A stretch of DNA of 64,000 nucleotides from Melioribacteraceae bacterium (GTDB lineage Bacteria; Bacteroidota; Ignavibacteria; Ignavibacteriales; Melioribacteraceae). The stretch covers positions 1 to 64,000 of the forward strand of contig JAKIUC010000004.1 of assembly GCA_021647785.1 (NCBI GenBank), written 5' to 3'. Below are positions 37,942 to 59,408 of this stretch, piece after piece. The notes below the pieces were generated by a model. The model saw only the letters and a list, made by a program, of their open reading frames with translations. It was not told the DNA's origin and made no database searches. The position numbers were made by a program, and so were the translations under genes. Numbering within the stretch: position 1 is the stretch's first letter; the number at the start of each line of letters is the position of its first letter.

Positions 37942-38070
37942 AAATTCCTTTTGGATAATTATTTAATTGCATCTTTTTATATAAAATAATAAATATATTT
38001 ACCAAATATCAATTGAATTATTAGTACACTTTTATATTTCTTCAAAAATAAAGTAAATGAATTATATCTT

Positions 38071-38099
38071 TTACCATTTGCTCCAATATCTTACCATTT
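38071..38099. promoter_or_regulatory. Direct repeat, possible LytTR regulator binding site
   Basis: TTACCATTT occurs at 38071-38079 and again at 38091-38099, exactly 20 bp apart, each preceded by 'atatc(tt)'. LytTR proteins bind pairs of ~9-bp direct repeats spaced by about two helical turns. The site lies in the 247-base gap between the divergent kinase and orphan-receiver genes, 90 bases upstream of the latter. The repeat does not match the LytTR consensus closely, so this is tentative. Confidence 0.35.
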
Positions 38100-38188
38100 A
38101 TACTTTAAAATTTGATTTAATTAGTATTTTTTTCGATTTTGAGACCAAATTTTAACAGAAATTATAATGAAGGTAGGAAAATTATTTA

Positions 38189-38560
38189 ATGCAGAAAATT
38201 AAAGCTGTTATAGTTGATGATGTTCAGCTTATTCGTGCAGAGTTAAAATCAATGCTCTTAGAATATCCAGAATTAGATGTGTTGGGGGAAGCCTCCAACG
38301 GAAAAACTGCGATAAAGGTGATAGAAAAACTAAAACCAGATGTTGTTTTTTTAGATATTCAAATGCCAGTATTTTCCGGATTTAATATGTTGGACGCATT
38401 AGATGTAAATTTCAAAATTATTTTTATATCTTCTTTCGATAAGTATATGCCCGAAGCACAAAAATATAATGCCGTAGATTTTTTGATGAAACCAATAAAT
38501 AAAGGGAAACTGGATGCAGCATTACAAAAAATTTTTAATCAATTAAACAACAATAAATAA
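38189..38560 (+). CDS. Stand-alone receiver-domain response regulator
   Basis: A 123-residue protein, a complete CheY-like receiver and nothing else: acidic residues in VIVDDVQ, phospho-acceptor Asp in VVFLDIQMP, Ser in FISSFDKY, Lys in DFLMKPIN. Along its whole length it parallels the receiver half of the 34027-34752 LytTR regulator (IRAELKSMLLEYPELDVLGEA against IRTELKFLLSEFSELLVTGEA). It probably arose by duplication with loss of the LytTR domain. It may act as a phosphate sink or competitor for the kinase it is divergently transcribed from. It lies 113 bases before the sulfatase operon. Confidence 0.9.
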   Translation: MQKIKAVIVDDVQLIRAELKSMLLEYPELDVLGEASNGKTAIKVIEKLKPDVVFLDIQMPVFSGFNMLDALDVNFKIIFISSFDKYMPEAQKYNAVDFLMKPINKGKLDAALQKIFNQLNNNK

Positions 38561-38673
38561 GATTAAAATCAGTATTCTAATATAGTTCCAATACAATAGT
38601 TAACCTTCTCCTCTTAAAAGTAAATTAAAACGTAACGTATAATTTTATCAATTTCAGAACAATAAGGAAAAAA

Positions 38674-42689: not shown

Positions 42690-42707
42690 TTCTGGAGTTC
42701 AAAAATT

Positions 42708-44852
42708 ATGATGAAAAAAAATACACTAATCAAATATTTGTTTTCTGCTTTTTTAATATTAGCAGTTTATTCATGCTCAGGTGATTCGGAAAACACTAAT
42801 TACCGCATGAGCAGTGGCGTTCATACGGTTGAAACATCTGAAATGATAATTACCGTTGGAAGTACAATGCAGTTAAATGTTCTCCGTAAAGTGGGAGAGG
42901 AACAATTATCATTTATAAAGAATGGTAATGAACAACATTATGCTGTAATAAATGGTACTGCAGTAAAAGGATTTAATATTGATGAAAACGAAACTAAATG
43001 GCTTGATATTAATAATGAATTCGGACCTGGGAAAAGACTTCAATTAACAGGTTCAACTTCGGGTCCTGATAATTCGGAAATTCTTAAAATATTATATATT
43101 GATTTCTATGAACAATTTCCGAATGCAGCAGTTATTAATAGTGAGTATATAAATAAAAATTCAACACATGGTCTAATAATTGGCGGAGAAGTGAGTAATA
43201 AATTTTTGCTTGATGCCTCACTTGCGAATGATAATTCTAAACCGAATGATTTTTGGATACTCCAAGGAGGCTCATATTATTCAAGACCTGATTGGATTCT
43301 TCAGGTAACAGATACTTTTTCTTACTCCAATTACCAAGGGCGAGATATGGAAAATGAGATTACTGGCGGAGGACTTCCTGTGCTTGATGTTTGGAACAAA
43401 GAGATCGGATTCTTTATTGGCAGCATTAACGATAAGCCAATCCCAATTTCACTTCCGGCAAAAACTGATGAAAATGGGGTGTTGAATATTTCGATTGAAT
43501 ATGATAAAGTAAACACTCCTTTTGAAACTGAGCCATACAAATCAATTCCGACTGTTATTGGCGTACACTCCGGCGATTTTTATGATGGCTTAACAACATA
43601 TTCAAAACTGATGGAACGTAAAGGTTTTGAAATGATGAAAAATAATCCTGATGATCCTGTATATGATGCAATATGGTGTGCGTGGGGTTTTGGTCCCAAT
43701 TTTACACGTGAGCAGATGATTGATATGATACCATTACTTAAGGAGATGAACTATAAAGTAGTTACTGTTGATTACGGCTGGTTCTATAAACAGGGTGATT
43801 TTTCACCAAGAGATGATACTTTCCCTAATGGTGATAAGAGCATGAAAGAGTTTGTGAAAATATTTCACGACAATGGATTTAAAATAAAATTGTGGATAGT
43901 GTGGAACCTTGCAGGTCCAGTACTTGCTGAAGAACATCCCGAATGGCTCGCAAGAGATATAGATGGTAACCCATATTTACTTTCCAATCAATGGGGTGAT
44001 TCTTATTATCTATGCCCTGCTGTTAAAGAAGTACAGGAATTTCACAGGGAGTTAACCAGCAAGTATATTGGTGAATGGGGCTTTGACGGGTTTAAGGAAG
44101 ACCAGTCGTTTATGAATGTAGTGAGTGAGTGCTATGCTGAAGCACATGGACATGCTTCACCGTACGATGCTTTGGCAGCACATCCTAATCTCTCAAAGAT
44201 TGTTATGGATGAAACTTTGAAGCATAAACCTGATGCAATTCTCGAAGTATGCCCATGCGGTGCTTTTCCATCATTCTATAAAATGCCATATTACAATCAG
44301 CCAATTTCGTCTGACTTTAATACCGCATGGCAAATACGCCACCGTGGTAAAGTAATTAAAGCATTGATGGGACCTTACGCAGCATATTATGGTGACCATG
44401 CTGAACGTCACTATTCAGAGATGAATCTCCCATCTATGATTGGCGTTGGCGGCATTCCGGGTACTATGTTCGTTAAAAAACCGGAAGATAATGTTGAGTT
44501 TCTTCGTGTAAAATATCCCGGATACCTTTCGCCCGAAAGACGAAAACATTTTGATAAATGGTTTGGTTTATATAATGAATATAAACTTGGTAACGGTGCA
44601 TATGTAAATTTATATGACCTTGCTTATGACAAACCTGAAACACATGTAATTGATAAAGATGGAATTCTTTACTATTCGTTCTTCGCTGACAAATGGTCAG
44701 GCAATATCCAATTTAGAGGCTTGGATGAAAAGGAATATAAAATTATTGATTATGTAAATGGCAAAGAACTTGGAAGAATAAAAGGGAGCAGCACCCTTAA
44801 TCTAAAATTTGAAAACTATTTATTTGTAAAAGCTATACCTGTTGGAAGTTGA
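42708..44852 (+). CDS. GH36-type alpha-galactosidase-like glycosidase (lipoprotein)
   Basis: A 714-residue enzyme with a lipobox (LAVYSCSG, Cys about 23). An N-terminal beta-sandwich (about 30-290) is followed by a TIM barrel (about 310-620). 'YDAIWCAWGFGPNFTREQMIDMIPLLKEMNYKVVTVDYGWF' is the melibiase start. GFDGFKEDQSF carries the candidate nucleophile D465 in a K-x-D motif, and 'ISSDFNTAWQ' has the candidate acid/base Asp (SD-x-N/D). 'EVCPCGAFPSF' is the usual C-x-C substrate loop. A short C-terminal beta domain follows. It fits clan GH-D, probably alpha-galactosidase or a related alpha-glycosidase. A hairpin terminator follows at 45030. Confidence 0.85.
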   Translation: MMKKNTLIKYLFSAFLILAVYSCSGDSENTNYRMSSGVHTVETSEMIITVGSTMQLNVLRKVGEEQLSFIKNGNEQHYAVINGTAVKGFNIDENETKWLDINNEFGPGKRLQLTGSTSGPDNSEILKILYIDFYEQFPNAAVINSEYINKNSTHGLIIGGEVSNKFLLDASLANDNSKPNDFWILQGGSYYSRPDWILQVTDTFSYSNYQGRDMENEITGGGLPVLDVWNKEIGFFIGSINDKPIPISLPAKTDENGVLNISIEYDKVNTPFETEPYKSIPTVIGVHSGDFYDGLTTYSKLMERKGFEMMKNNPDDPVYDAIWCAWGFGPNFTREQMIDMIPLLKEMNYKVVTVDYGWFYKQGDFSPRDDTFPNGDKSMKEFVKIFHDNGFKIKLWIVWNLAGPVLAEEHPEWLARDIDGNPYLLSNQWGDSYYLCPAVKEVQEFHRELTSKYIGEWGFDGFKEDQSFMNVVSECYAEAHGHASPYDALAAHPNLSKIVMDETLKHKPDAILEVCPCGAFPSFYKMPYYNQPISSDFNTAWQIRHRGKVIKALMGPYAAYYGDHAERHYSEMNLPSMIGVGGIPGTMFVKKPEDNVEFLRVKYPGYLSPERRKHFDKWFGLYNEYKLGNGAYVNLYDLAYDKPETHVIDKDGILYYSFFADKWSGNIQFRGLDEKEYKIIDYVNGKELGRIKGSSTLNLKFENYLFVKAIPVGS

Positions 44853-45029
44853 GAATTAAACAACCAAATGGTGAAAAAAAATATAAATATTTGAAAAGTG
44901 ATAAAACTCTAATGTTAAGAAAGCACTTACACAAAAAGGAACAAGGTTTTTAAACTCCTGGATAATACTGTAAATAGATCAGTGAAAAATGAAAGTACCT
45001 CCTATTCATTTTTCCGATTAGTTGGTGAG

Positions 45030-45066
45030 GGAACTCGTGGCACAATTGCTACGAGTTCCTGTTTTA
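45030..45066 (+). terminator. Terminator after the sulfatase-GH116-GH36 genes
   Basis: GGAACTCGT (45030-45038) pairs perfectly with ACGAGTTCC (45051-45059), with a 12-base loop and GTTTT following. It lies about 180 bases after the GH36-like stop and ends the first glycosidase transcript. Confidence 0.65.
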
Positions 45067-45149
45067 AACAAGTGTCGTGTTAAGTCTGCCTCGGCGGATT
45101 AAAAATTCTATTCTGAATAATTCGATAAAATATTTCCACAAAGGTTAAT

Positions 45150-45971
45150 ATGAAAATATCAATATTCTCTAAACACCTGCACTGGCTTGGACTTAAGGAA
45201 ATGGCTGAAACCGCTGCTGCCATTGGTTTCGATGGAGTTGATTTAACAGTACGTGCCGGAGGACATGTTGATCCTGAAACTGTTGAAGATACTCTGCCAA
45301 AAGCATTTGAAGCATGCAAGAATGCTGGAGTAGAAATTACAATGCTTTGTACTGATATTCAGGATGCATCACTTCCTACAACAGAAAAAGTACTGAAAGC
45401 AGCGAGCAGTTTGGGAATAAAACATTACAGACTTGGCTGGTTTTTTTATGATGATAAAAAAAGTCTTGCAGCTAACCTATCAGATATTAAAAACAAACTC
45501 GAAAATATTGAAGCTATTAGCAGAGAATATGGAATTAAGGCGTGTTACCAGAACCACGAGGGCAACTGGTTTGGTTCGCCCGTGTGGGACCTCGGTATAA
45601 TTCTACAACAAATTAATTCCGAATGGCTTGGCAGCCAGTATGATATTTTGAATGCAACTCTGGAAGGAATTTATTCATGGCAGCTCGGATTAGAATTATT
45701 AGCCCCATACATACATACAATTGATATTAAGGATGGGTACTGGAATTTTGAAAATGGCAAACCCAAATTACATTACACCCCACTGGGGAATGGGATGGTT
45801 GATTTCAAAGAGTTTTTCAGATTAACAAAAAAGTTTAACATTAATGCACCATTGTCAGTGCATTACGAGTACCCGCTTGGTGGTTGCGAAACCGGTTCAA
45901 GTAAACTTTCGGTACCCGAAAAAGAGGTAATAACAGCAATTAAAAACGACTTGCAGAAACTAAGAGAATAA
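45150..45971 (+). CDS. Sugar phosphate isomerase/epimerase family protein (TIM barrel)
   Basis: A 273-residue xylose-isomerase-like TIM-barrel protein without a signal peptide, therefore cytoplasmic. Family features: 'FSKHLHWLGLKEMAETAAAIGFDGVDLTVRAGGHVDPE', the metal-ligand Glu in ACYQNHEGNWFG, 'SQYDILNAT', 'IHTIDIKDGYW' and 'LSVHYEYPLGG'. Relatives include hydroxypyruvate isomerase, inosose dehydratase/isomerase and 3-keto-sugar-processing proteins. Its presence with an SSS transporter and a Gfo/Idh/MocA dehydrogenase suggests intracellular oxidation or isomerisation of an imported sugar. Confidence 0.85.
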   Translation: MKISIFSKHLHWLGLKEMAETAAAIGFDGVDLTVRAGGHVDPETVEDTLPKAFEACKNAGVEITMLCTDIQDASLPTTEKVLKAASSLGIKHYRLGWFFYDDKKSLAANLSDIKNKLENIEAISREYGIKACYQNHEGNWFGSPVWDLGIILQQINSEWLGSQYDILNATLEGIYSWQLGLELLAPYIHTIDIKDGYWNFENGKPKLHYTPLGNGMVDFKEFFRLTKKFNINAPLSVHYEYPLGGCETGSSKLSVPEKEVITAIKNDLQKLRE

Positions 45972-46025
45972 GTCAAATAATCTGCATGATTTCTTGTTAT
46001 AATTTAGTTTTCGTAAAGATGATTT

Positions 46026-46263
46026 TTACTGATGGTCGGAAATTTCGGTTACTATAAAAATATTATTTTCAATATACCCTATCGCTCGATATTTCTTGTC
46101 AATTTTGAAATATAACAAATTGGCGTTTTTGGGTTTCCTTTTGCGTAAATCAACCAACTCGTAAAAACCGCTTTCCATATATTTTTTGGCTTTGAGATAG
46201 GGTTTCACCAAATTTCTTTTTTTTGATATAAGAAACTATGCCATCTTCTTCAAGAATTTTCAT
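46026..46263 (-). pseudogene. RelE/HigB-like toxin gene with a frameshift in an A8 tract
   Basis: An ATG at 46263 overlaps the antitoxin stop (ATGA) and reads MKILEEDGIVSYIKKKK. It then hits an eight-A run (46224-46217 on the plus-strand T-run) and leaves frame. The -1 frame continues as NLVKPYLKAKKYMESGFYELVDLRKRKP...YFKIDKKYRAIGYIENNIFIVTEISDHQ to the stop at 46026. With seven A's the two parts join into one ~78-residue protein of RelE/ParE-like character. Either the gene is broken, the homopolymer is phase-variable or misread, or slippage makes the full product. The in-frame part alone would have to start at TTG 46211. Confidence 0.65.
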
Positions 46264-46469
46264 CCTTGAAAATCAGTGAGCTTTTTATCTGAATTGGTAC
46301 GTGATTTTTCAATTTTTTCTAAAGAATCTTCCGAAAGTGAATCCTCATCAATTTGATACAATTTTATCGGTGATAATTTTTCCCTTAAATAAATAAAAAG
46401 TTCGCGAGCAGTTTCAAACTCTGTTTTCGGATTTTTTTTGAAGCCTTTTTTTATTGTGAATGTTGTCAT
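46260..46469 (-). CDS. Small antitoxin-like protein
   Basis: A 69-residue charged protein (MTTFTIKKGFKKNPKTEFETARELFIYLREKL..., acidic Ser/Glu-rich C-terminus). It has the size and gene order of a type II antitoxin: it precedes the toxin-like gene and its TGA overlaps the toxin ATG by four bases. No ribbon-helix-helix or HTH motif is evident, so the call is mostly from context. It lies on the minus strand inside the plus-strand carbohydrate cluster, suggesting later insertion. Confidence 0.6.
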   Translation of the reverse strand: MTTFTIKKGFKKNPKTEFETARELFIYLREKLSPIKLYQIDEDSLSEDSLEKIEKSRTNSDKKLTDFQG

Positions 46470-46707
46470 AGTTTTTCTGTTTTATAAAACAAATTTTATT
46501 TAAATATAATAAATCGCGTAAAAAAATCAAACATAGTTTATTACTTGTTTACCACGTATTGCATATTAATCAAACAGCAGTATTATCTAACCGTTTAATA
46601 CGTAAACAAGCCGTTAAGGTTTAACCCTTTGTACTTAAAAAATCTAAAAATTATTTTTGAAATTAATATCATTTAAAATTGGTTAATATAAATAGGAGTC
46701 GCTCTCT

Positions 46708-48441
46708 ATGAAGTCTGTTGAAATGTTAGATTATTTTGTTATTGTACTTTACCTCCTAATTTCACTTGGTGTCGGCTTTTATTTTATGAAGTTCAACAAG
46801 GGTGCGTCAGATTTCTTTAAAGGTGGTAATAAAATTCCTTGGCTTGTTTCTGGCTTAAGTGCATTCATGACTGGTTTCAGTGCCTGGACGTTTACCGGAG
46901 CAGCGGGCATTGCATATACTGATGGCATTATAATCATCCTACTCTATGTTGGTAATGCAGCAACCTTCCTACTTGGTTACTGGATTTTTGCAGTACGCTG
47001 GCGAAGGTCGCGAATATCATCCCCGATGGAATATCTCTCCGAACGTTTTGACCAGCCTACTCGACAAACTTTTTCATGGTCAACAGTTTTCTTTGACCTC
47101 TTTATGGTAGCGGTGTGGCTCTTTGCTCTTGGGCAATTTGTATCGGTTGCTATTGGTGTTCCTGTTTATGTGGTTATTCTTGTTTCCAGCGTTTTGATTC
47201 TTTTCTACTGTCTGTTAGGTGGTTTGTGGGCAGTGGTAATAACAGATTTTATACAGGGTATAATATTACTTCCATTTACAATTATACTTGCCTATGCTGC
47301 AATAAGTAAATTAGGCGGATTTTCTGAATTTATAGCAGCCCTTCCTCCCGAAATGCTCGAGATTGGAAATACAGAATATTCGAGTTGGATGTTTCTTTTA
47401 TCGTGGGTTGTCATGGTAATATTTGGGTACAATACACGTGCCCATGCCCAACGGTACTATAGCGTTGATAACGAATCATCAGCAAAAAAAATATCTCTAC
47501 TTAATTTTGTCCTTTTTCTGTTTGGAGCATTTATCTGGTTTATTCCTCCAATGGCTGCACGTGTGCTGTATCCTGATATTGCCGAACTGTGGCCCAACCA
47601 AAGCAACCCTCATGAAGGAGCTTATGCAGTTATAAGTCTGGAGTTGCTGCCGCATGGCTTAATCGGTATTATGCTGGCTGCTCTGTTTAGTGCAAGTATG
47701 TCGAGTGTATCAAGTTATTACAATATGTTTTCTGCAATTATAACAAACGATATTATTCCTCGTTTCCGAAAGGAAGAGATGTCTGAAAAGAAAATGCTTT
47801 CAGTCGGTCGTATATCAACGCTTGTCATTGGCATAGTTGTACCGGTGATTGCATTTGGAATGTATATGAGTGGTAAAAGTGCTTTCGGACTCCTTCTAAC
47901 CTTTAGCTCAATTATAGCAATAGCTTATGGTCCCCCCGCATTAATTGGATTGATTTCCAAGTATAGTTCACATTGGTCAGGACTAGCCTATTTTATAGTA
48001 GCAATGTTTTTGGGTTGCCTCGGTTGGTTTGCATTAGGGTGGGGACTAAATGAAAACGTACTTTATGTAATTCCACTATGTCCGGTAATTATGTTTGGAG
48101 GCACATGGCTTTATAACCAATTCTCGAAAGAGCCAGAACATTATGTGCAGCGGCGCGAAAAGTTTTTTGAAAAATTGGATACACCAATTAATATGGATAC
48201 AGAAGTTGAAGATTCTGGAAATATTGAATCTGTAGTTTTTGTTTTTCTTGCAAGTGTTACAACCTTTATGGCTGCATTAAGCCTTGTGTTCCTTCTGTTT
48301 AATGAACCTGAAGATTATTTTATTATAACTCTTTATTCAGGAATTACCTTTTTTCTTGCACTAATATTTTTCTGGTTGAGCAAAAGAAGTAAAACGGTGA
48401 TAGTGAACACTAATGATAGTACAGGAAAAATTTATGAGTAA
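46708..48441 (+). CDS. Sodium:solute symporter (SSS family)
   Basis: A 577-residue inner-membrane transporter with about 14 transmembrane segments. SSS features are the early 'GASDFFKGGNKIPWLVSGLSAFMTGFSAWTFTGAAGIAYTDG' segment (Na2-site and substrate-loop region) and the later 'LLPHGLIGIMLAALFSASMSSVSSYYNMFSAIITNDI' segment with the Ser-rich Na+ site. The C-terminal extension includes two further helices. It is probably the sugar uptake step of the cluster, because no SusC/SusD or ABC sugar porter is present. It overlaps the following dehydrogenase by eight bases. Confidence 0.92.
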   Translation: MKSVEMLDYFVIVLYLLISLGVGFYFMKFNKGASDFFKGGNKIPWLVSGLSAFMTGFSAWTFTGAAGIAYTDGIIIILLYVGNAATFLLGYWIFAVRWRRSRISSPMEYLSERFDQPTRQTFSWSTVFFDLFMVAVWLFALGQFVSVAIGVPVYVVILVSSVLILFYCLLGGLWAVVITDFIQGIILLPFTIILAYAAISKLGGFSEFIAALPPEMLEIGNTEYSSWMFLLSWVVMVIFGYNTRAHAQRYYSVDNESSAKKISLLNFVLFLFGAFIWFIPPMAARVLYPDIAELWPNQSNPHEGAYAVISLELLPHGLIGIMLAALFSASMSSVSSYYNMFSAIITNDIIPRFRKEEMSEKKMLSVGRISTLVIGIVVPVIAFGMYMSGKSAFGLLLTFSSIIAIAYGPPALIGLISKYSSHWSGLAYFIVAMFLGCLGWFALGWGLNENVLYVIPLCPVIMFGGTWLYNQFSKEPEHYVQRREKFFEKLDTPINMDTEVEDSGNIESVVFVFLASVTTFMAALSLVFLLFNEPEDYFIITLYSGITFFLALIFFWLSKRSKTVIVNTNDSTGKIYE

Positions 48442-49486
48442 TGATAATGAAATAAAAGTGTTGCGTACTGCTGTTGTGGGTTTAGGACGAGCAGGCTGGT
48501 ACATGCACATTCCTGAAATAATTAGGAATGAAAAATATTTGCTTGTTGCAGTTGCTGACCCTTTAGAGGAGCGACTAACAGAAGCGAAATCAGAATTCGG
48601 TGTAAATGTTTATAAAAGCTGTGAGGAATTGTTAGACGGTGAAAATTTGGACTTATTAGTTATTGCCTCGCCAACTCACTTTCACGTATTGCAAGCTAAA
48701 GTTGCATTTGAAAAAGGTGTTGATGTTTTATGCGATAAACCAATCGCTTCATCATACGAAGAAGCAGAAGAAATGGTTGCAGCAATGAAAAAGCACAATC
48801 GCAAACTCACAGTCTATATGCCTAACAGAACTTATCCTGAAACCGTTGCACTAAAAGAGATACTTGCAATGAATTTGATTGGCTCGGTTTATATGATAAA
48901 AAGGGGCTGGACTCGATACAGAATTAGGGTGGATTGGCAGGCTTTCCTCAAGTATGGTGGTGGTGAGTTAAGCAATTCAGGTGCACATTTTATTGATCAG
49001 CTCTTATATCTTTCTGGTTCAAAGATTAAAAATTTTTATTGCAAATTAAAAAAAATTGCGAGTAAAGGTGATGCAGAGGATATGGCAAAAATAGTTATGG
49101 AAACAGAAAACGGAATAATACTTGACCTCGATATTAATAATGCAGCAGCATACCCTGTAACGCCCTGGCAAATACTCGGAGAGAGAGGCAGTATTCTTAA
49201 AGATGATGAAAATGAAACTTGGAAAGTAAAATATTTTAATGAAGATGGTGATGCTGGTATTCAATTGCAGAACAACCTTGCAGCAAATGGAAGGTCATAC
49301 TGTGACAATCAGGATATTCCCTGGCAGGAAAAAATATTTCATGTTTCTGATTTCAAACCAGTTAGCTATTACGATTTATGCCACGATTATTTTGCATTAG
49401 ATAAGAAGCCATTTGTACCCGCTTCTGAATCTGCTGAGCTTATGAAAATTATTGAAACATTTAGGCAGAGTGGAGAAGATAAATAG
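48434..49486 (+). CDS. Gfo/Idh/MocA-family oxidoreductase
   Basis: About 350 residues. I place the start at ATG 48434 (MSNDNEIKVLRTAVVGLGRAGW), preceded by AGGAAAAA, rather than at 48413 inside the symporter gene. The Rossmann domain has GLGRAG (G-x-G-x-x-G); then 'LLVIASPTHFHVLQAKVAFEKGVDVLCDKPIA' with the family Lys of the EKP/DKP motif. The C-terminal domain contains 'GGGELSNSGAHFIDQLLYLSG' with a His in the substrate pocket. It is an NAD(P)-dependent sugar or cyclitol dehydrogenase, cytoplasmic. It is cotranscribed with the symporter. Confidence 0.9.
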   Translation: MSNDNEIKVLRTAVVGLGRAGWYMHIPEIIRNEKYLLVAVADPLEERLTEAKSEFGVNVYKSCEELLDGENLDLLVIASPTHFHVLQAKVAFEKGVDVLCDKPIASSYEEAEEMVAAMKKHNRKLTVYMPNRTYPETVALKEILAMNLIGSVYMIKRGWTRYRIRVDWQAFLKYGGGELSNSGAHFIDQLLYLSGSKIKNFYCKLKKIASKGDAEDMAKIVMETENGIILDLDINNAAAYPVTPWQILGERGSILKDDENETWKVKYFNEDGDAGIQLQNNLAANGRSYCDNQDIPWQEKIFHVSDFKPVSYYDLCHDYFALDKKPFVPASESAELMKIIETFRQSGEDK

Positions 49487-49532
49487 TGCTACGTACTAAT
49501 AGAATTTTTAGAAATAATTTAAGGAGTTGAGT

Positions 49533-50681
49533 ATGACAAATTTATCCAAACAATTATTTGTACCTCTTATTTTTGCATTGCTATTAACAGTCGTTGAAAA
49601 AAGCAATGCACAACTGGACTACTTGATGTCCATAAAAAAGATTGACATACATACACACATCAATAATGATGCACCATTTCTTAGAAAATTCCTTGATGAT
49701 TATAATATGAAAGTTAACACACTCTCTACTGGCGGGCTTGATACAGCACGTATGAATTTTCGCATAAACGGTGCAACGGAGTTCACCAATGAGCAGCCTC
49801 GCTATTATTCTTGGGTAACTACCTTCGAGTTAGTTAACCGAGATGACCCGAACTGGACGAAGAATGTAATAAAAAAGCTTAAGAATGATTTTGAACATGG
49901 AGCAGTTGGTGTAAAAATCTGGAAAGATATTGGAATGGATATTAAAAATTCTGATGGAGAATTCATACAGGTAAATGACCCCATGTTCAAACCGATTTTT
50001 GAGTTTATTGAGGAGCAAGGAAAAACATTGATTGCTCATATTGGTGAACCAATTCAAGCATGGATGCCGACATATCCGATATCAAAAGATAAACCAGGAA
50101 TCTATTGGGCTAAACATCCGCAATTTAGTTTTTGGGATAAAGCTGACCGTCCCTCTTACAGTGATATTATGGCAGCACGCGACAACTTAATTGCTAAACA
50201 TCCCAATCTCCGCGTTGTCGGTGCTCATCTTGCCAGTTTAGAATTTGATGTTAATGAAATTGCGAAACGCTTGGAGAGTTATCCAAACTTTGCAGTTGAG
50301 ATCGGTGGTCGTATGCGGTACCTTATGTGGCAGGCACATGGCAAAGTGCGCGAGTTCTTTATAAAGTACCAAGATAGGATTATGTATGGCACAGATTTAT
50401 CTGGCGGTGATATAAAATGGAAAAATAATTTGGAACGCAAAGCAACTAATGAAGAGATTGAAAAGATGAATGAAAGATTGCACTATAGGCATGACCTCTT
50501 TTTCCGCTATTTAGCTACGGATGATGATATCCCTTGTGGAAATTACATAATTGGAGATATGCCATTGCCTGAGCCAACATACACAGTTAAGGGGTTAGCT
50601 CTTCCTAAAAAAGTACTCGATAAAATCTTTTATGAAAATGCAGTGAAGTGGTTCCCCGGAGTTGAAAAAGGATTTAAGTAA
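49533..50681 (+). CDS. Secreted amidohydrolase-family protein (Amidohydro_2 type)
   Basis: 382 residues from ATG 49533, six bases after AAGGAG; a TTG at 49527 is an unlikely start. The signal peptide is about residues 1-26. Metal-binding pattern: KIDIHTHIN (H-x-H) near residue 37, 'GVKIWKDIG' at the usual Lys position, 'TLIAHIGEP', 'RVVGAHLAS' and 'IMYGTDLSGG' (Asp). These fit the PF04909 metal-dependent hydrolase family. Substrate unknown; family members include lactonases and decarboxylases. It is related to the 53487-54749 protein. It is the third gene of the symporter-dehydrogenase run. Confidence 0.82.
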   Translation: MTNLSKQLFVPLIFALLLTVVEKSNAQLDYLMSIKKIDIHTHINNDAPFLRKFLDDYNMKVNTLSTGGLDTARMNFRINGATEFTNEQPRYYSWVTTFELVNRDDPNWTKNVIKKLKNDFEHGAVGVKIWKDIGMDIKNSDGEFIQVNDPMFKPIFEFIEEQGKTLIAHIGEPIQAWMPTYPISKDKPGIYWAKHPQFSFWDKADRPSYSDIMAARDNLIAKHPNLRVVGAHLASLEFDVNEIAKRLESYPNFAVEIGGRMRYLMWQAHGKVREFFIKYQDRIMYGTDLSGGDIKWKNNLERKATNEEIEKMNERLHYRHDLFFRYLATDDDIPCGNYIIGDMPLPEPTYTVKGLALPKKVLDKIFYENAVKWFPGVEKGFK

Positions 50682-50734
50682 ATCTACCTCCGATGTAGAG
50701 CGTGAAACATTCGTAACTCTTTGAGACATACACG

Positions 50735-51030
50735 TAGATATGCAAAGTCATGTAAGTCTGTGAAACTCTTATGCCGAGGGCATCCTTACAGGACAGAGGA
50801 TTCTCCGCGGGAGTCTCACAGGCCTACGGAGCTTCGGAGAAACCGTCATTATTGATTTTTAAATACACACCTGTCCCCCTCTTTTTGTGGGAAGGGGATG
50901 ATTATAAAAAACAATTGTAGAACGAAAGTCCCCTTTCGTTTCTATCTAATAGCAAGAGCGAATCAGGAGATTCGCTCTACAAATTATTCCGCAAAAGAGC
51001 GGAATAGGTAAACAGATGTCTGTGAGACTC
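50735..51030. repeat. Mosaic intergenic repeat (right copy, inverted)
   Basis: The 477-base gap has no gene. 50839-50870, 50901-50930 and 50946-51016 are the reverse complements of blocks at 33819-33845, 33632-33659 and 33533-33600. They include the hairpin of 'gagcgaatc' and the 'aattgtagaacgaaag' block. 50735-50838 holds the 'tgtgaaactcttatgccgagggcatccttacagg' module, also present near 33730-33790. The copies are in opposite orientation and about 17 kb apart. Confidence 0.75.
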
Positions 51031-51158
51031 CTTCGGAGAAACATTCATCCCGCGGTACAGGTTTTTATTCCACCCCCTAAACAGAATTAGGTTTATCAGT
51101 GGTAGCAAAATAAATGAAGTATCTATTTTGATTTTAGCAATATTGGAGTTTTAGAAAA

Positions 51159-53471
51159 ATGAAAAAAAATTATATTTCTCTATTTATATTATTCTCCTTT
51201 CTCTTCGTGCAATCTCATTGTTTAATTGCAGAAGAGCGTGGAGTAATTAACTTATCTGGCGAATGGGATTTTGAACAAACAGATAAAGCCTGGCCTCCCT
51301 CACTATTTACAAGGGTTATTTCAGTTCCTGGGTTAATTGACCTTGCTATCCCAAAAATTGAAAAATATAATGAATTGTTTCTCGGAGACCAAGATCCAAA
51401 GTATAGTTGGTATCGCAAAACTTTTACAGTTCCCCAAAAGTACTTAGACAAAAAAGTAATTCTTACTATTCTTAAAAGCCGTTTCAACACACAAGTAATT
51501 ATTAACGGTATTGATGTTGGCACATATTTAGAAACCAGCACTCCAATTGAATGTGATTTAACAAAATTTATTAAACCTAACGAAGAAAATACGCTGCTTG
51601 TAAGGGTTGATGATATTAACCGTAACCCTGTGCAGTCAGCATACTCAAAGGATATTGAACAGTTCACATATATTCCGGGAATTTGGGATGAAGTATTCAT
51701 TTCATTTACAGGACCCGTAAGGGTTGCACGTTCTCTTAGCTTGCCAAATGTTAAAGAGAAAAAAGTAACAGTAAAGCTGCAATTACAAAACCATGACGAT
51801 AAAATAAAACATGAATTTTCACTTCTCGATTACGACACAGAAGTTTCAATATTTATCAAAGAGAAAAAAAGTGGAAAGAGAGTTAGTGCCATTCATAAGA
51901 TAAACACAAAAGTAAAATGTTTGAATCGTAAAGAAGCTGCAATAGATATTCCACTTGATGAAGTAAATTTATGGTCGCCAGATAGTCCGTTTCTTTACGA
52001 GGCTGTTATTGAAGTTACAACACAAGGGGAAGTATCGGATTATATTACTGACACTTTTGGTATGCGTGATTTTGGAACTGCAAACCGTAAGTTTGTTTTG
52101 AATGGAGAGGAAGTAGTTCTGCTTGGCTCAAATATTAGTCTTGCTCGATTCTTTGGTGATAGAGAACGGAGCAACTTGCCGTGGGATAAGGAGTGGGTTA
52201 AGAAATTACTAATCGATATACCTAAATCACTCCGATGGAATTCCTTTAGGAATACAATAGGGCTGCTGCCAGATTTCTGGTACAGTTTGGCAGATGAATA
52301 TGGTATTATGATTCAAGATGAGTGGCCTATGTGGAAGAACAGAGGATGGAATAATCAGATTGAAAAAGAATATACTGACTGGGTTTGGGTAAACGGCAGT
52401 CACCCTAGTATTATTATCTGGGATGCGATGAACGAATCGAGACATGAGTACATAGGCAAGGTTGTAATCCCAAAACTGAAAAAATTAGACCCAACACGTA
52501 TATGGGATGCGGGGCATATGGATGCATCTAACATGGCACTCTATGAAATGGGTGAGCCTCACTATTATCCGTTTTTATTTAGCCAAAGAACGACAAAGGA
52601 AAAGCTTAATAAATCCCGCAGCGACTATAGGTTTGGCAGACTAATATATGACGACAAAAAACTTTATAAAGCAAAGTATTCAACCGTGCCTCAAGTTGCA
52701 AATGAGTATTGCTGGGTATGGCTTAATAGAGACGGCTCTCCTGCGTTTATTTCCAAAGGGGAAACGGATGAAAATGATTTGCTACCAAAAAAACATTACT
52801 TCCGCCCTTTAAATATTGAAGGGAGTGATAAAGAAAAAACACCCGGACTTTTTAAATTCTATTTAGGAAGTAACACAAACGCAAGTGCTAACAGAGAATT
52901 CCAGGCGTACATTCTTCAACTTCAAACCGAAGCTCTGCGGTCTCAGAGTTATATAAATGGAGTACAGAGTTTTACTTACCTCACAAATGATAAGGGCTAT
53001 ACAGGGGATTGGTTTCTAAATCCCATAAAAGATTTACTACCTTCACCAACGCTGGTTTGGCAGTTCCACAGTTTTTCACCGTTTGCTGTTTTTATTGATG
53101 AAGAGGATGGAAAGTACCTCAAGAACCCGCAGAGTTTTGAACCTGGAAAGATTCAGCCAATAAGACTTATCGGAATCAATGATACAGGAACTGAAATGGA
53201 AGGTGAGTTAAACCTTAAAATAATTGATATCAATAATGAAACTATTGTAAGCGAAAGGCTAAGTATTAAACTCGCACCTCACTTTAAAGAATTTATTGCA
53301 GCAAATATTAAAATGCCCTCCAACAGTGGTGGGTACATACTCGTATCTGAGCTAACAGATAAGGATGGCGTTGTACAGATTAGCAGAAGGTATATAAGAG
53401 TTGGCGATACCAGCGAAAGTGTTTCGTTTCCAAATTTAAAATTAGATTTACCTGAAAATTGGCCAAAATAA
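51159..53471 (+). CDS. Glycoside hydrolase family 2 protein
   Basis: A 770-residue secreted enzyme (signal peptide about 1-25). It has a sugar-binding jelly roll (LSGEWDFEQTD...YSWYRKTFTVP, about 30-195), an Ig-like domain (about 200-305) and a TIM barrel (about 310-600). The catalytic acid/base is the Glu of IIWDAMNESRHEY (about 424), and the VNGSHPSIIIWD strand is typical. The nucleophile may be the Glu in ANEYCWVW (about 515). Family activities include beta-galactosidase, beta-glucuronidase and beta-mannosidase; the specificity is not determined. It starts a transcript that continues with the 53487 amidohydrolase 15 bases later. Confidence 0.88.
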   Translation: MKKNYISLFILFSFLFVQSHCLIAEERGVINLSGEWDFEQTDKAWPPSLFTRVISVPGLIDLAIPKIEKYNELFLGDQDPKYSWYRKTFTVPQKYLDKKVILTILKSRFNTQVIINGIDVGTYLETSTPIECDLTKFIKPNEENTLLVRVDDINRNPVQSAYSKDIEQFTYIPGIWDEVFISFTGPVRVARSLSLPNVKEKKVTVKLQLQNHDDKIKHEFSLLDYDTEVSIFIKEKKSGKRVSAIHKINTKVKCLNRKEAAIDIPLDEVNLWSPDSPFLYEAVIEVTTQGEVSDYITDTFGMRDFGTANRKFVLNGEEVVLLGSNISLARFFGDRERSNLPWDKEWVKKLLIDIPKSLRWNSFRNTIGLLPDFWYSLADEYGIMIQDEWPMWKNRGWNNQIEKEYTDWVWVNGSHPSIIIWDAMNESRHEYIGKVVIPKLKKLDPTRIWDAGHMDASNMALYEMGEPHYYPFLFSQRTTKEKLNKSRSDYRFGRLIYDDKKLYKAKYSTVPQVANEYCWVWLNRDGSPAFISKGETDENDLLPKKHYFRPLNIEGSDKEKTPGLFKFYLGSNTNASANREFQAYILQLQTEALRSQSYINGVQSFTYLTNDKGYTGDWFLNPIKDLLPSPTLVWQFHSFSPFAVFIDEEDGKYLKNPQSFEPGKIQPIRLIGINDTGTEMEGELNLKIIDINNETIVSERLSIKLAPHFKEFIAANIKMPSNSGGYILVSELTDKDGVVQISRRYIRVGDTSESVSFPNLKLDLPENWPK

Positions 53472-53486
53472 AAAAAGGAAAAAATT

Positions 53487-54749
53487 ATGTTTAAGAAAAT
53501 TTCATTATTAATTATGTTTTTATTTTTATTAAATAACCTTGCATTTGCCCAGCAGCAAAAGTTATATGAACTTTCTGAAATACCAATTGTTGATATGCAC
53601 ACCCACCTTAACGGGAAAGAGGAATTTAAACATGCTGTAAAAGTTATGGACGAATGGGGAGGCACAATAAGCGTTTCGGTAAATACTAATGAAAAAGAAC
53701 TTATGCAATTCATTGCAGATTCGTTGGATAGCCGAATTCTTTTAAGCCATAGAGGGAAAGAGTTTACACCGGAAGAAGTTGTTGAAATGAAAAAGCAAAA
53801 TTATTCTGGTATTAAGACACACCTTCGCTATCATACTTTGGCTTCTACATTATCGCACGAGCAGATTGACAAAATGGGCGAAGTTGGACTTCCATTTATT
53901 GCAATGCACGTAGCAGACCCGCCAGAAGATATCTACTACGTTCCTGAAAAATTTATGGTTCACCAATTAGATGCAGAACAATTAGCACGCCGGCACCCGA
54001 AAACTAATTTTATTTTTGCTCACGGCTTCTACCTTACAAATAGGAATTCCGATATAGATACACTCCGCAAAATATTTGATAGGAACCCGAATATTTATGC
54101 TGATATTTGCTGTTCAAAATGGTGGGATGAGCCAGAGCCGAGCTTTACCAAAATAAGAAATCTGCTAATTGATTATAAAGATAGATTTATGTTTGGTACT
54201 GATTATGGTGTTAATCGTACAGCTGATGGTTTGAAGTTTTTACGCGAAAGACTTGAAACTAACAAAGCCCTTGCGTTCGGAAACAATGGTGGTCCTGGTC
54301 CTGGGTTTGCTCTTCCACTTGATGTATTGAACCACATTTATTACTGGAACGCTGCCAAAGTTATTCCCGGTGTTAAAGAAGCATTAGAAATAAATGGATT
54401 TGAAATTGGAAGTGAACCCCCTGCACCGCAACCTGATAAATACGGCAGAGATTATAACCCACAACAGTATGAGGTTATTCAACACAACTCTGTTGTGAAA
54501 ATATCAGAAAAATTTGAAATTAAAATTAACCTGGCACCTTATGGTCGTGCAGTAGAAGGAACATTGGAGATTTTGAGTTGGAAGAAAAAAGTTGTGAACA
54601 TACCTTTCTCTGGTAAATTTGAAGGTGAGCAAGTTTTTACTTGGGACCCCGCTGGCGAAAATGAACTTAAAATAGAGCCTGGTAAATACCGTGCATGGCT
54701 TATACTTGAAAATATGAAATGTGCTGAAACAGTATTTGTGGTTGAATGA
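53487..54749 (+). CDS. Secreted amidohydrolase with C-terminal beta domain
   Basis: A 420-residue protein. Signal peptide about 1-22. The metal-dependent hydrolase domain (about 30-300) has IVDMHTHLNG (H-x-H), 'GIKTHLRYH', 'FIAMHVADP', 'TNFIFAHGFYL' and 'FMFGTDYGVNR' (Asp). After a Pro-rich linker (EPPAPQPDKYG) a ~90-residue beta-sandwich follows, with strands such as FEIKINLAPYG and KYRAWLILENM, perhaps Ig-like. It follows the GH2 gene by 15 bases and is related to the amidohydrolase at 49533-50681, suggesting paired roles in the pathway. Substrate unknown. Confidence 0.8.
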   Translation: MFKKISLLIMFLFLLNNLAFAQQQKLYELSEIPIVDMHTHLNGKEEFKHAVKVMDEWGGTISVSVNTNEKELMQFIADSLDSRILLSHRGKEFTPEEVVEMKKQNYSGIKTHLRYHTLASTLSHEQIDKMGEVGLPFIAMHVADPPEDIYYVPEKFMVHQLDAEQLARRHPKTNFIFAHGFYLTNRNSDIDTLRKIFDRNPNIYADICCSKWWDEPEPSFTKIRNLLIDYKDRFMFGTDYGVNRTADGLKFLRERLETNKALAFGNNGGPGPGFALPLDVLNHIYYWNAAKVIPGVKEALEINGFEIGSEPPAPQPDKYGRDYNPQQYEVIQHNSVVKISEKFEIKINLAPYGRAVEGTLEILSWKKKVVNIPFSGKFEGEQVFTWDPAGENELKIEPGKYRAWLILENMKCAETVFVVE

Positions 54750-54806
54750 TATACTGAGCTTAAAATGTCTCTCTGTAGTTGAAGACTCTTTTAAGGAGTA
54801 GCTTGC

Positions 54807-54944
54807 AGAAACCTTCTCCCATAGGGATTCTATGAAGAGGTTTGTAGTATTAAATGTTGTTATATTTATTGCATAATAATCAATACTAATAATTATGATT
54901 AGTAGAAAGCCTCTTCCATAGGAATCCTTATGGGAGAAGGTTCT
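54807..54944. repeat. Long inverted repeat (~38-bp arms) between amidohydrolase and esterase genes
   Basis: The left arm 54807-54843 ('agaaaccttctcccataggg...gaagaggttt') is complemented, with a few mismatches, by the right arm 54906-54944 ('aaagcctcttcc...gggagaaggttct'). The inner 62 bp is AT-rich. It looks like a small palindromic insertion or MITE. Folded RNA would make a stable stem that could end the GH2 transcript, but there is no T-tract. Confidence 0.7.
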
Positions 54945-55010
54945 AAATCTGAATTATGCAATTGAACTAAAATAAACAAGTTGAAAAAATAAATGAACTG
55001 GAAGAATAAA

Positions 55011-56312
55011 ATGAAAAAACAATTATTTCTGCAAAAAATATTTTTTGTATTTCTTTTTGTATCCATCTCTTATGCTCAGCCGCGAGTTGAGTTTGTTGAA
55101 GTTCTTGTAGCCCCTCACCATGTTGATTGGCAATACAAAACAGGGGAGAATGTTACGTTTAATATTCAAGTACTGCAAGCTGGAAATCCGATTGAGAATG
55201 TAAAACTTAAGTACGAAATCCGGCATGAAAAAATGGAAATACTAAAATCTGATGAAATGGTTTTGAAGTCAGGTAAAATTTCAGTTGATGGCGGTACGAT
55301 GAATAGACCAGGCTTCTTGCGGTGTAAAGCAATTGTTTGGGTTAATGACAAAATGTATTCTGGAATTGGTACAGCTGGTTTTGATGTTGAAAAAATAGAA
55401 CCAACCACAACACTACCTGCTGATTTCAATCAGTTTTGGGAGAACGCTAAACATGAAGCATCAAAAATTCCGTTAGATATAAGAATGACTCTATTACCAG
55501 AGCAAAGTACTGAAACTGTAAATGTTTATCATATCTCCTTTCAAAATTATAAGAAAGATAGTAGAATATATGGCATGTTAGCGAGACCCAAAACTGATGG
55601 GAAATACCCCGCAGTACTTAAAGTCCCGGGTGCTGGCGTAAGGTCTTATAAAGCTCTGATATCTATGGCTGAAAAGGGGATTGTAACATTGACAATTGGA
55701 ATTCATGGAATCCCAGTTAATATGGAGCGGCGTGTTTATGATAATTTACGTAAAGCTGGTTTGGATCATTACTGGTTTTACAATTTGGATGATAGAGATA
55801 GATACTATTATAAACGTGTTTATTTAGGATGTGTTCGTGCAATTGATTTCATATTCTCTTTACCTGAATTTGATGGAGAAAACTTGGCAGTAACAGGTGC
55901 AAGTCAGGGTGGTGCTTTATCAATAGTAACAGCAGCTTTAGATTCCAGAGTAAAATGGTTGGGTTCTGTTTATCCTGCTTTGAGTGATTTAACTGGTTAT
56001 CTCAATAATAGGGCGGGCGGATGGCCTCACATGTTTAATAAGGCTAACGCTGATTTTAATAACAAAAAGGAAAAAATTGAAACTTCGAAATATTATGATG
56101 TCGTAAATTTTGCCAAACAATTAAAAATTCCCGGATTTTATACTTGGGGGTTTAACGATACTACTTGTCCCCCTACATCAATGTACTCTGCATACAACAG
56201 TATTACTGCACCTAAGGAGTTATTTCTCGCTCTGGATACTGGGCATTGGACTTATCCTGAACAAAGGGAAAAAATGGAAGATTGGTTGGTAAAAAAACTG
56301 TTGGGTAATTAA
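55011..56312 (+). CDS. Acetylxylan-esterase/cephalosporin-deacetylase-like alpha/beta hydrolase (AXE1)
   Basis: About 433 residues from ATG 55011, which has a GGAAG ribosome site; ATG 54993 is possible. The signal peptide is about 1-22. An N-terminal Ig-like domain (about 25-135) precedes the AXE1 hydrolase (about 150-433). Catalytic Ser lies in TGASQGGALS (about 298), Asp in GFNDTTCPP (about 381), and His in DTGHWTYPE (about 410). 'FQNYKKDSRIYGMLARPK' and 'VLKVPGAGVRSY' are typical of the family. It would deacetylate oligosaccharides outside the cytoplasm. Confidence 0.9.
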   Translation: MKKQLFLQKIFFVFLFVSISYAQPRVEFVEVLVAPHHVDWQYKTGENVTFNIQVLQAGNPIENVKLKYEIRHEKMEILKSDEMVLKSGKISVDGGTMNRPGFLRCKAIVWVNDKMYSGIGTAGFDVEKIEPTTTLPADFNQFWENAKHEASKIPLDIRMTLLPEQSTETVNVYHISFQNYKKDSRIYGMLARPKTDGKYPAVLKVPGAGVRSYKALISMAEKGIVTLTIGIHGIPVNMERRVYDNLRKAGLDHYWFYNLDDRDRYYYKRVYLGCVRAIDFIFSLPEFDGENLAVTGASQGGALSIVTAALDSRVKWLGSVYPALSDLTGYLNNRAGGWPHMFNKANADFNNKKEKIETSKYYDVVNFAKQLKIPGFYTWGFNDTTCPPTSMYSAYNSITAPKELFLALDTGHWTYPEQREKMEDWLVKKLLGN

Positions 56313-56411
56313 AGAGTGATATTTTTTAATAAATAGATATTACCATAATCCGCCGTGGCGAATCGTTCCTCTGGAGTTTGTAGTACAGTAGGTACGTTAT
56401 AGTGGTAAATT

Positions 56412-57989
56412 TTGGAAAACAAAAAAAGTGAGACAAAAATGAAATCGATATACTTCATATTAATATCAATACTAATGCTTTTGAGTAGCACGGAAAAAGT
56501 AGTAGCACAAACGGATAGCTGGCAGACTCTTAAAAATGAAACAAGCCAATTAGGTAAAAAAGAATGGCAGCCGATGTTAAAATATGTAGCTGATTTACAC
56601 GAAAGAAGCACACATCCAGCCACTTATCCATTTGATTATGAATGGGAGGAGATTGGACCTGGTTATGTGTATGGTCCTGCCTTTGGTCATTGGGATGTTG
56701 TACATCAAATAATTGATGTGCTCCCTTCATACCCTACACACGCCTTACATCAGTTGTATAAAACGGGAACAATTCGAATAAGCGAAATAAATGAAAAAGA
56801 ATTAAAGATAGGCACTAAAACTATTGCCATTATCGGGGCTACTATTATTGATGGTAATGGTAGTCAACCGTTACAAAACGCGACCGTCATTATTAAAAAC
56901 AATGTGATACACAGTGTTGGAAAAGTTGAAAACATCTCAATACCAAAGGATGCCGAGATTATCGAGGCAAAGGGTTTGACTCTTTTACCGGGTTTCATCG
57001 ATCCTCACTTTCACTATGATTTTGTTAAAGAGTTACCAACAAAATTTTTAAGAAATGGTGTTACTTCGGTAAGAGATCCGGGTGAATGGGTAGAGTCGTA
57101 TCAGGAAGAACGAGACTCCGGCTTACCTTTACCACGATTATTTCTTACTGGGCCGCACATAGAGATGCCACCAGCCGCCTATCCGGAAGATGCTTATATC
57201 GTCCGGGACAAAAAGGAGGCACGTACTGCTGTAAATGTGTTAGCTGATAGCGGTGTTTCGGCGATTAAGATTTACTTCCGTTTGTCCCTTGGACTGATAG
57301 AGGAAGTATGTGCCGTAGCACGTGAACGGGGTCTTCCGGTTACAGCTCACTTGGAAATTACCGATGCCAGAGAAGCCATCCTTGCAGGACTGGATGGCAT
57401 TGAACATGTTACTTCATTCAGAACGGCTTTATTGCCGCCTCTGGAAGCACAAAAATATCGCCAAGAAGTAATGAAGGACAACAAAGCCCGTACAAAAGGT
57501 CTCTATAAAATGTGGAATGAGCTAGATATTAATAGCCCGACAGTTGACTCACTCATCCGGTTTTTGGCTAAGCATAAAACATTTGTAACACCGACATTAG
57601 CGGCATTCGAGTATCGCATTGATGAGAATAAAAAAGATAGTGTTAAGTTGAATGGGTTTAAAAAGATGATGGCTTTTATTGGTAAAGCCTTCAAAGGGGG
57701 TGTGGAAATTGTGGTCGGTTCACACGGTGCTTGGGTGGGCTATGCCGAGAGAGGATGGTCTTTTCAACGGGAAATGGAATTGTTGGTTGAAAGTGGTATG
57801 AGTCCGATGGATGTTATTGTTAGTGCTACAATAAAAGGTGCCCGTTTCCTTCGTATTCAGGATCGTTTAGGAAGCATAGAAAAAGGAAAGCAGGCAGATA
57901 TTGTCCTGGTCGAGGGCGATCCATTAAAAGATATCAAAGCCCTATATAATATTAAATGGGTTATATTGAATGGAGTCTGGATTCGATAA
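56412..57989 (+). CDS. Chimeric protein: N-terminus of the GH63-like neighbour fused to an amidohydrolase
   Basis: A 525-residue protein. Residues 1-24 are a signal peptide. Residues about 25-116 (DSWQTLKNETSQLG...PSYPTHALHQLY) are nearly identical to residues 23-105 of the 58104-59408 protein. At base 56760 the match stops abruptly. From about residue 135 to the end it is an imidazolonepropionase/prolidase-type amidohydrolase (IIGATIIDGNGSQPLQNATVIIKNN, LLPGFIDPHFHYD, VTAHLEITDAREAILAGLDGIEHV, 'VGSHGAWVG', 'ADIVLVEGDPLKDI'). The H-x-H and later His are present. Its base composition is visibly richer in G+C than its neighbours. It is probably an acquired amidohydrolase joined to a duplicated leader. 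Confidence 0.82.
   Translation: MENKKSETKMKSIYFILISILMLLSSTEKVVAQTDSWQTLKNETSQLGKKEWQPMLKYVADLHERSTHPATYPFDYEWEEIGPGYVYGPAFGHWDVVHQIIDVLPSYPTHALHQLYKTGTIRISEINEKELKIGTKTIAIIGATIIDGNGSQPLQNATVIIKNNVIHSVGKVENISIPKDAEIIEAKGLTLLPGFIDPHFHYDFVKELPTKFLRNGVTSVRDPGEWVESYQEERDSGLPLPRLFLTGPHIEMPPAAYPEDAYIVRDKKEARTAVNVLADSGVSAIKIYFRLSLGLIEEVCAVARERGLPVTAHLEITDAREAILAGLDGIEHVTSFRTALLPPLEAQKYRQEVMKDNKARTKGLYKMWNELDINSPTVDSLIRFLAKHKTFVTPTLAAFEYRIDENKKDSVKLNGFKKMMAFIGKAFKGGVEIVVGSHGAWVGYAERGWSFQREMELLVESGMSPMDVIVSATIKGARFLRIQDRLGSIEKGKQADIVLVEGDPLKDIKALYNIKWVILNGVWIR
56515..56760 (+). repeat. Duplicated ~250 bp coding segment (matches 58166-58419)
   Basis: DNA of the two genes aligns almost base for base, mostly with third-position differences. 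The last ~40 bases (ctcccttcat...cagttgtata) are identical before divergence at 56761 / 58420. The source is the GH63-like gene, where the segment is part of a continuous enzyme. Confidence 0.85.
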
Positions 57990-58103
57990 TAAGAAGCCTA
58001 AATTGTCTGCTAAGGCACATTGGGGATCCTTTTTATCCGTTGTGTAGCAAGGGCATTATAGGAATATAGATGTGATTTAAAAAACTAAATAAACGAGGAA
58101 AAA

Positions 58104-59408
58104 ATGAGAAAGATTTATATTTTTTTGATGTTAATACTTTTATTTAACTTGGATTTTGTGCAAGCACAATCGGATAGCTGGGCGGGGCTAAAAGATGAAG
58201 CTGGGCAGTTAGGCAAGGAAGAATGGCACCCCATGTTAAAATATGTAGCTGATTTACACGAAAGAAGCACACATCCAGCCACTTATCCGTTTGATTATGA
58301 ATGGGAAGAAATTGGACCTGGCTATGTTTATGGTCCAGCTTTTGGGCATTGGGATATTGTACACCAGATACTTGATGTACTCCCTTCATACCCTACACAC
58401 GCCTTACATCAGTTGTATAATGATGTAAAGAATCAGGAGCCAAGTGGTCTTTTGCCAGGTTCAATTTGGATGATTGGTGGAGAGGATGTTCCTAATATGT
58501 CTGTTAAAAGAGACAAAGTAGATTGGAGTAAAAAGGATGCTGGGCATCCGCCGGTGTGGGTGGTTGCTGTTCAAGATTATATTGAATTGACTGGTGATAA
58601 AGAGGTTCTAAAAACATTCTACACTCCGCTTGTTCGTCAAATTACGTGGTTCGAGAATGAAAGAAAAGCAGAAGGCGAAGGATTTTATTACAATGATATT
58701 TTAATCAAAAAATGGGAAAGCGGTGTTGACCAAGGAATCCGTTTTGATGATGTTGATATGGGTGCTTGGGCTTGTATTGACGCTACCTCGCATGTTTATT
58801 GGCTTTATAAAATGGCTAACCTTTGGGGTAAAGAATTGGGCATGACTAATGATTATTTTGAAAATCGGGAAAGTGAATTATTACAGTTTATTCAAGAAGA
58901 TATGTACTCTTCCGAAGATGGTATGTTTTATGATATTTGGGCTACCAAAGATACAACCTTAAAACAAACCGCATTTGAAAATATGTGGCCCCTTGTAGTG
59001 GGTGCAGCAACTCAAGAACAGGCAGACCGCTTTATTGATGACTATTTGTTAAACCCTGATGTTTTTTACACAGAGCATCCTATTGCTACTGTTGGAGTTA
59101 AAGACCCTAAGTTTGAATTAAGAATGTGGCGCGGACCTGCTTGGAACAGTATGACGTACTGGGCTGCACGTGGATGCTTAAATTATGGACGCAAAGATGC
59201 CGCTGCAAAAATACTTGAAAGAGCTTTAGATGCTACTGCAAAAGTCTTTGATGAAACAGGTACAATTTGGGAATTTTATCATCCTCTCGGCGGCAGCCCA
59301 AAAGATTTAGAGCGCAAACCGCACACTGAATACAACGTACCTTGTAAAGATTATTTGGGGCATAACCCTATGATTGCTATGGCACGGATGTATGAAGCAG
59401 CAAAATAG
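58104..59408 (+). CDS. GH63/trehalase-like (alpha/alpha)6-barrel glycosidase
   Basis: A 434-residue secreted enzyme. Signal peptide about 1-21 (ends FVQAQ). The rest is a single (alpha/alpha) barrel: 'PPVWVVAVQDYIELTGDKEVLKTFYTPL', 'WESGVDQGIRFDD' (candidate Asp acid), 'DMGAWACIDATSHVYWLYKMANL', 'MFYDIWATKD' and 'LRMWRGPAWNSMTYWAARGCL', then 'TIWEFYHPLGG' with a candidate Glu base. This fits MGH1-like/GH63 or GH37 families, which cleave alpha-glucosides or alpha-mannosyl-glycerate types. Specificity unknown. Residues 23-105 are duplicated into the preceding gene. It is the last gene of the carbohydrate region. Confidence 0.82.
   Translation: MRKIYIFLMLILLFNLDFVQAQSDSWAGLKDEAGQLGKEEWHPMLKYVADLHERSTHPATYPFDYEWEEIGPGYVYGPAFGHWDIVHQILDVLPSYPTHALHQLYNDVKNQEPSGLLPGSIWMIGGEDVPNMSVKRDKVDWSKKDAGHPPVWVVAVQDYIELTGDKEVLKTFYTPLVRQITWFENERKAEGEGFYYNDILIKKWESGVDQGIRFDDVDMGAWACIDATSHVYWLYKMANLWGKELGMTNDYFENRESELLQFIQEDMYSSEDGMFYDIWATKDTTLKQTAFENMWPLVVGAATQEQADRFIDDYLLNPDVFYTEHPIATVGVKDPKFELRMWRGPAWNSMTYWAARGCLNYGRKDAAAKILERALDATAKVFDETGTIWEFYHPLGGSPKDLERKPHTEYNVPCKDYLGHNPMIAMARMYEAAK

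Follow-up and report, generated by a model that had tools for sequence, protein, structure and literature searches.

A candidate fusion of a glycosidase start with an exported amidohydrolase in a Melioribacteraceae glycan-degradation island

How does a complete amidohydrolase come to carry the beginning of the glycosidase encoded beside it? This question is raised by a gene in a 64,000-nucleotide stretch of a Melioribacteraceae genome (hereafter the window). Positions 56412-57989 form one open frame, and taking the ATG at 56439 as the start gives a protein of 516 residues. ORF 56439-57989 comprises residues 1-107 of a GH63-like glycosidase followed by a complete Amidohydro_1 enzyme. An earlier reading of the DNA (the original prediction) described a young fusion through which an acquired, cytosolic-type amidohydrolase gained export. 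Judged from sequence comparisons, the fusion looks real, natural and mechanistically ordinary, with both parents known. Our results lead to a different account of its age and of the origin of its export.

Parts of the fusion gene

The features of the locus are collected in Table 1. A gapless DNA repeat with 84% identity connects 56473-56761 with 58132-58420, which bears out the predicted joining of the amidohydrolase to a duplicated N-terminal piece of its neighbor. Both parents are identifiable, and one of them is adjacent. Over an 80-codon core (56517-56756), the leader and the neighbor share 88.8% of their amino acids and 87.5% of their nucleotides. The nucleotide identity of the leader to this neighbor exceeds that to any of nine further glycosidase starts we compared (at most 78.3%). 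Similarity stops at 56761/58420, directly after 41 identical base pairs, so the abrupt break that had been noticed after about 40 bp of identity is confirmed.

Table 1. Coordinates of features at the fusion locus, numbered from the first letter of the window
Feature	Position	Strand	Basis
Glycan-degradation island	34759..59408		Pfam
Acetyl xylan esterase-like gene directly upstream of fusion	54993..56312	+	Pfam AXE1, E 9.9e-48
Signal peptide of fusion, 24 residues to likely cleavage site	56439..56510	+	Translation; hydropathy
Leader from GH63-like N-terminus, 83 residues + 2 nt	56511..56761	+	Gapless match to 58170-58420
56-bp run identical to 58233-58288	56574..56629	+	Sequence comparison of leader copies
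41-bp run identical to 58380-58420, ending at break	56721..56761	+	Sequence comparison of leader copies
Mature amidohydrolase including stop codon	56762..57989	+	78.6-79% amino acid identity to L046; Pfam PF01979
Intact GH63/MGH1-like glycosidase, second parent	58104..59408	+	Pfam PF22422, E 7.8e-31; Foldseek

The intact glycosidase (58104-59408) has both the GH63-like catalytic domain and the fold; its AlphaFold model (pLDDT 86.7) matches Escherichia coli YgjK (GH63) in a Foldseek search (E 3.8e-14). At E 0.001 it matched 39 of 97 relatives, counting its own genome, and its best identity elsewhere was 34%. Remote relatives at or below this identity are present in the family and order. The neighbor shares the fold of GH63 and mannosylglycerate hydrolase-like enzymes (PF22422; YgjK), and the leader of the fusion is its start, but the fusion retains just the first helices. 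The glycosidase model places helices near the start at residues 26-33, 39-54, 83-92, and 97-109, and the break falls inside the last of these barrel helices, away from any domain edge. In this model the borrowed segment covers the first barrel helices and stops within helix 97-109, so it is not a domain. Pfam detected no glycosidase domain in the fusion protein, and a complete catalytic barrel is absent.

Behind the break, the amidohydrolase is complete, as predicted. The Amidohydro_1 profile is covered from position 1 to 344 of 345 (E 1.6e-26). The predicted model of the fusion, built on an alignment of 16 rows, has a mean pLDDT of 64.6. Its pLDDT falls below 50 at leader residues 57-125 and likewise at residues 190-253 inside the amidohydrolase; because the latter are equally low, the values in the leader are uninformative on its folding. 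The original prediction also saw clearly higher G+C after the break. The amidohydrolase part has 41.9% G+C, the leader 38.0%, and the remainder of the glycosidase 39.9%, but there is no step at the break, after which the first 204 nt have only 34.8%. The two corresponding genes of a Calditrichota relative show a comparably small difference (46.5 vs 44.4%).

Unfused relatives and export signals

We compared the fusion to loci in which its parents are separate. Scanning 84,980 species genomes for the pattern yielded 18 stretches and 9 confirmed loci. One of these, in a Calditrichota MAG (L046; JAJRVW010000204.1), carries both parents unfused, the glycosidase at 83% and the amidohydrolase at 79% identity. 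Its gene order is glycosidase, DUF6259 homolog, amidohydrolase, with the glycosidase and amidohydrolase on the same strand. The sulfatase, DUF6259, and xylose isomerase-like genes are also common to L046 and the window, at 48.8-54.8% identity, so the two fusion parents clearly stand out as the most similar pair. Both stand at an equal distance from L046 (dS 1.80 for the part of the glycosidase after its start and 1.81 for the amidohydrolase). The unfused state is seen in L046, L056, L057, and L070.

The L046 amidohydrolase begins with a Sec-type signal peptide and can be aligned to the fusion from roughly residue 27 of its own sequence. Signal or lipoprotein signal sequences begin the homologs in L056, L057, and L070, giving export signals in all four unfused homologs whose starts were read (judged by eye and hydropathy). 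Because the unfused L046 ortholog and three further homologs carry signals of their own, export was not newly created by the fusion, contrary to the proposal that a cytosolic-type amidohydrolase had gained it. We rejected a cytosolic origin on these grounds. The comparisons indicate that one export leader took the place of another and that the amidohydrolase's own signal peptide was lost.

The fusion product is probably exported via a glycosidase-type signal peptide, whose highest 11-residue hydropathy is 2.91. The original prediction called this signal different from the donor's. It has diverged, but homology to the glycosidase continues through the cleavage site (A-Q-x-D-S). The signal-peptide codons of the two genes scored above 500 of 500 shuffles, although 2 of the 62 control gene starts equaled or exceeded their score. 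In 62 control comparisons of the DNA before the ATG, the best score was 7.0 over either length, against 10.0 for the 40 nt and 8.0 for the 98 nt upstream of the fusion and the glycosidase.

The L046 locus also bears on whether the junction is an assembler's error linking the amidohydrolase to the beginning of a second glycosidase gene. The assembly is a draft of 99 contigs with 3.51% contamination, and the leader copies are identical over runs of 56 and 41 bp, which could invite such an error. We nevertheless consider an assembly chimera improbable. The identical 41 bp are found in both glycosidase copies and are absent before the unfused L046 amidohydrolase. The longest word that 56721-56800 shares with the 5' region of that gene is 13 bases, and with the remainder of the window, leaving out the glycosidase copy, it is 11, so a repeat-driven misjoin would be without visible cause. 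In addition, the reading frame is preserved, the join lies just past an L046-type signal peptide, 12.5% of core bases distinguish the leader from the copy downstream, and the site is 56 kb inside a 120-kb contig.

We searched for the same fusion in six overlapping genome sets: 97 relatives, 9 locus genomes, 79 genomes of the family, 395 of the phylum, 40 of the L046 phylum, and 391 of the class. The relative, family, phylum, and class sets include the fusion's own genome, and the phylum and class searches scored three candidates for each genome. Among the matches listed, none from another genome joins both parts in any set. The longest reach into the leader among listed matches was 8 residues (G280:C70 in the phylum set, query 109-524). 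The fusion protein matched 0 of 78 other family genomes at E 1e-20 and 0 of 390 other class genomes at E 1e-35, a cut-off that picks up close relatives of the amidohydrolase but could miss weak or remote glycosidase starts. A plasmid search at E 1e-20 returned 6 records, none spanning both parts, and a literature search found no paper on a GH63-amidohydrolase fusion. The matchless family and class genomes, together with the presence of only distant relatives of both enzymes nearby, agree with the original prediction that the locus was acquired.

Age and origin of the fusion

The fusion had been called young. The leader and the intact copy have a dS of 0.53 (95% interval 0.29-0.93), which, with their 12.5% base divergence, makes a young duplication doubtful; the fusion step itself may be later than the duplication. 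Pairwise omega is 0.12 (95% interval 0.04-0.27), and the leader retains all 46 columns that are invariant among seven intact glycosidases (L050, L054, and L063 were left out of this set). By our own estimate, a leader unconstrained since the duplication would give a pairwise omega near 0.5, above the interval found. Unique changes in the leader and the neighbor, counted against four outgroups, were 13:11, 9:14, 10:13, and 11:9, with no consistent excess on either side. In a tree of the leader region (240 bp, 10 rows), a clade of eight lacks internal resolution, and the leader branch measures 0.098 versus 0.008 for the neighbor. The low omega and the kept columns suggest that the leader was until recently part of a working glycosidase, is useful in the fusion, or has been repaired by conversion.

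Under the last of these explanations, gene conversion from the intact copy keeps overwriting parts of the leader, and the fusion would be older than it appears. The differences between the copies are clustered: the longest run of identical codons is 18 of 80 (shuffle P 0.012), and the sum of squared runs gives P 0.004. dS also drops toward the break, from 1.9 in codons 1-18 to 0.47 and then 0.27. The falling divergence and clustered identical codons give a weak hint of conversion, but without the first 15 codons the test yields P 0.058 for the run and 0.033 for the squares, on few sites. We regard continued conversion as a tentative, rather unlikely explanation; it would fit either of the routes to the fusion considered below. 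Usefulness in the fusion could take the form of selection for the 83-residue leader as a docking or targeting piece that associates the amidohydrolase with the glycosidase outside the cytoplasm. We hold little expectation that this is so. If it were true, a slice of a glycosidase barrel and the duplication of a gene fragment would have led to a two-enzyme assembly.

The course of events that we consider probable combines an acquired island, a duplicated glycosidase, and a deletion that joined one copy to an already exported amidohydrolase. A horizontally acquired glycan-degradation island would have held a GH63-like glycosidase gene and the gene for the exported amidohydrolase. The glycosidase gene would then have been duplicated, as the two copies of its start suggest. 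In one copy, a deletion from codon 107 to just past the amidohydrolase signal peptide would have removed the 3' three quarters of the gene, joining the glycosidase start and the amidohydrolase in frame. The resulting protein would carry an 83-residue non-catalytic glycosidase remnant and probably acts as an amidohydrolase. Given a second glycosidase copy, such a deletion is possible in one step because L046 has the glycosidase before the amidohydrolase on the same strand. Apart from a 12-residue chance match (E 1.7), the three neighboring intergenic regions contained no remains of another amidohydrolase or glycosidase, so a deletion would have left no visible scar beside the fusion.

A tandem duplication could have produced the same joint. 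If the ancestral order was amidohydrolase then glycosidase, a duplication from the 5' end of the amidohydrolase to glycosidase codon 107 would in a single event yield the observed arrangement, a fusion with an intact glycosidase behind it, with later loss of the intact upstream amidohydrolase. The resemblance of the two genes over the 40 and 98 nt before their starts, which exceeds that in any of the 62 control comparisons, speaks for this route. It requires a gene order opposite to that of L046 plus the later loss, however, and a remnant of the upstream amidohydrolase was looked for and not found. It also accounts for the leader omega of 0.12 only with a leader that is useful or converted. 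Sequence does not distinguish the two routes, and we view the tandem duplication as possible but the less probable of them.

The amidohydrolase and its glycan island

The amidohydrolase resembles Xaa-Pro dipeptidase and prolidase-like Amidohydro_1 enzymes (PDB 2qs8, 2p9b) in its complete domain and in its best sequence and fold matches. It differs in that its score of 115.6 bits lies far below the NCBI cut-off of 500 for Xaa-Pro dipeptidase and in that its own signal peptide has been replaced in the fusion. Metal ligands and catalytic residues of Amidohydro_1 enzymes comprise HxH, Lys, His, His, and Asp. The motifs HFH, IKIY, AHLE, and EHVTS are present, and GSH takes the place of the GTD of 2qs8. 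This Gly-Ser-His (57717-57725) is conserved in homologs, including the L046 ortholog, where 2qs8 has Gly-Thr-Asp. A catalytic residue may have changed in this subfamily.

Amidohydrolases of the same type (43-45% identity) are fused to an esterase in three other genomes (G280, G234, and G431; loci L067-L069). In these frames of 1204-1224 amino acids, the amidohydrolase lies behind an alpha/beta-hydrolase esterase-like part (Pfam was run on L067 only). The alpha/beta-hydrolase domain is retained there, whereas the present fusion has only its partner's N-terminal scrap. An AXE1-like gene follows the amidohydrolase in L070 and precedes it in the window. The L070 homolog (1324-2694) is broken by a stop codon and is either a pseudogene or a sequence error.

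The surrounding island encodes a sensor kinase, a sulfatase, GH116, DUF6259, and xylose isomerase-like proteins, an SSF transporter, an oxidoreductase, two Amidohydro_2 proteins, GH2, AXE1, the fusion, and the GH63-like glycosidase. In this setting, the amidohydrolase seems to work in glycan breakdown. The AXE1 gene upstream of the fusion had no match in 75 other family genomes at E 1e-30. In the two congeners we read (of four others), the ferredoxin, endonuclease III, and HD genes are direct neighbors, and none of the island genes occurs in about 18 kb upstream. We take the island as acquired.

Several repeats were also observed here. A short dispersed element (about 75-90 bp) whose ends are inverted (TATACCGA...TCGGTATA) occurs at 33282-33367, 59731-59821, and 3210-3282, and two direct-orientation copies flank the island. 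A query with 59700-59840 found at least 47 matches in its own genome, mostly partial, among the best 40 of 108 candidates scored. An inverted repeat upstream of the AXE1 gene (54810-54942) has 21-nt arms that are 95% complementary and separated by 91 nt.

At this locus both parents of a bacterial fusion are in place, a relative shows the unfused state, and the age of the duplication can be measured. The locus cautions that a new leader need not mean a gain of export, and suggests that an export leader, along with a scrap of the donor enzyme, can take the place of another.
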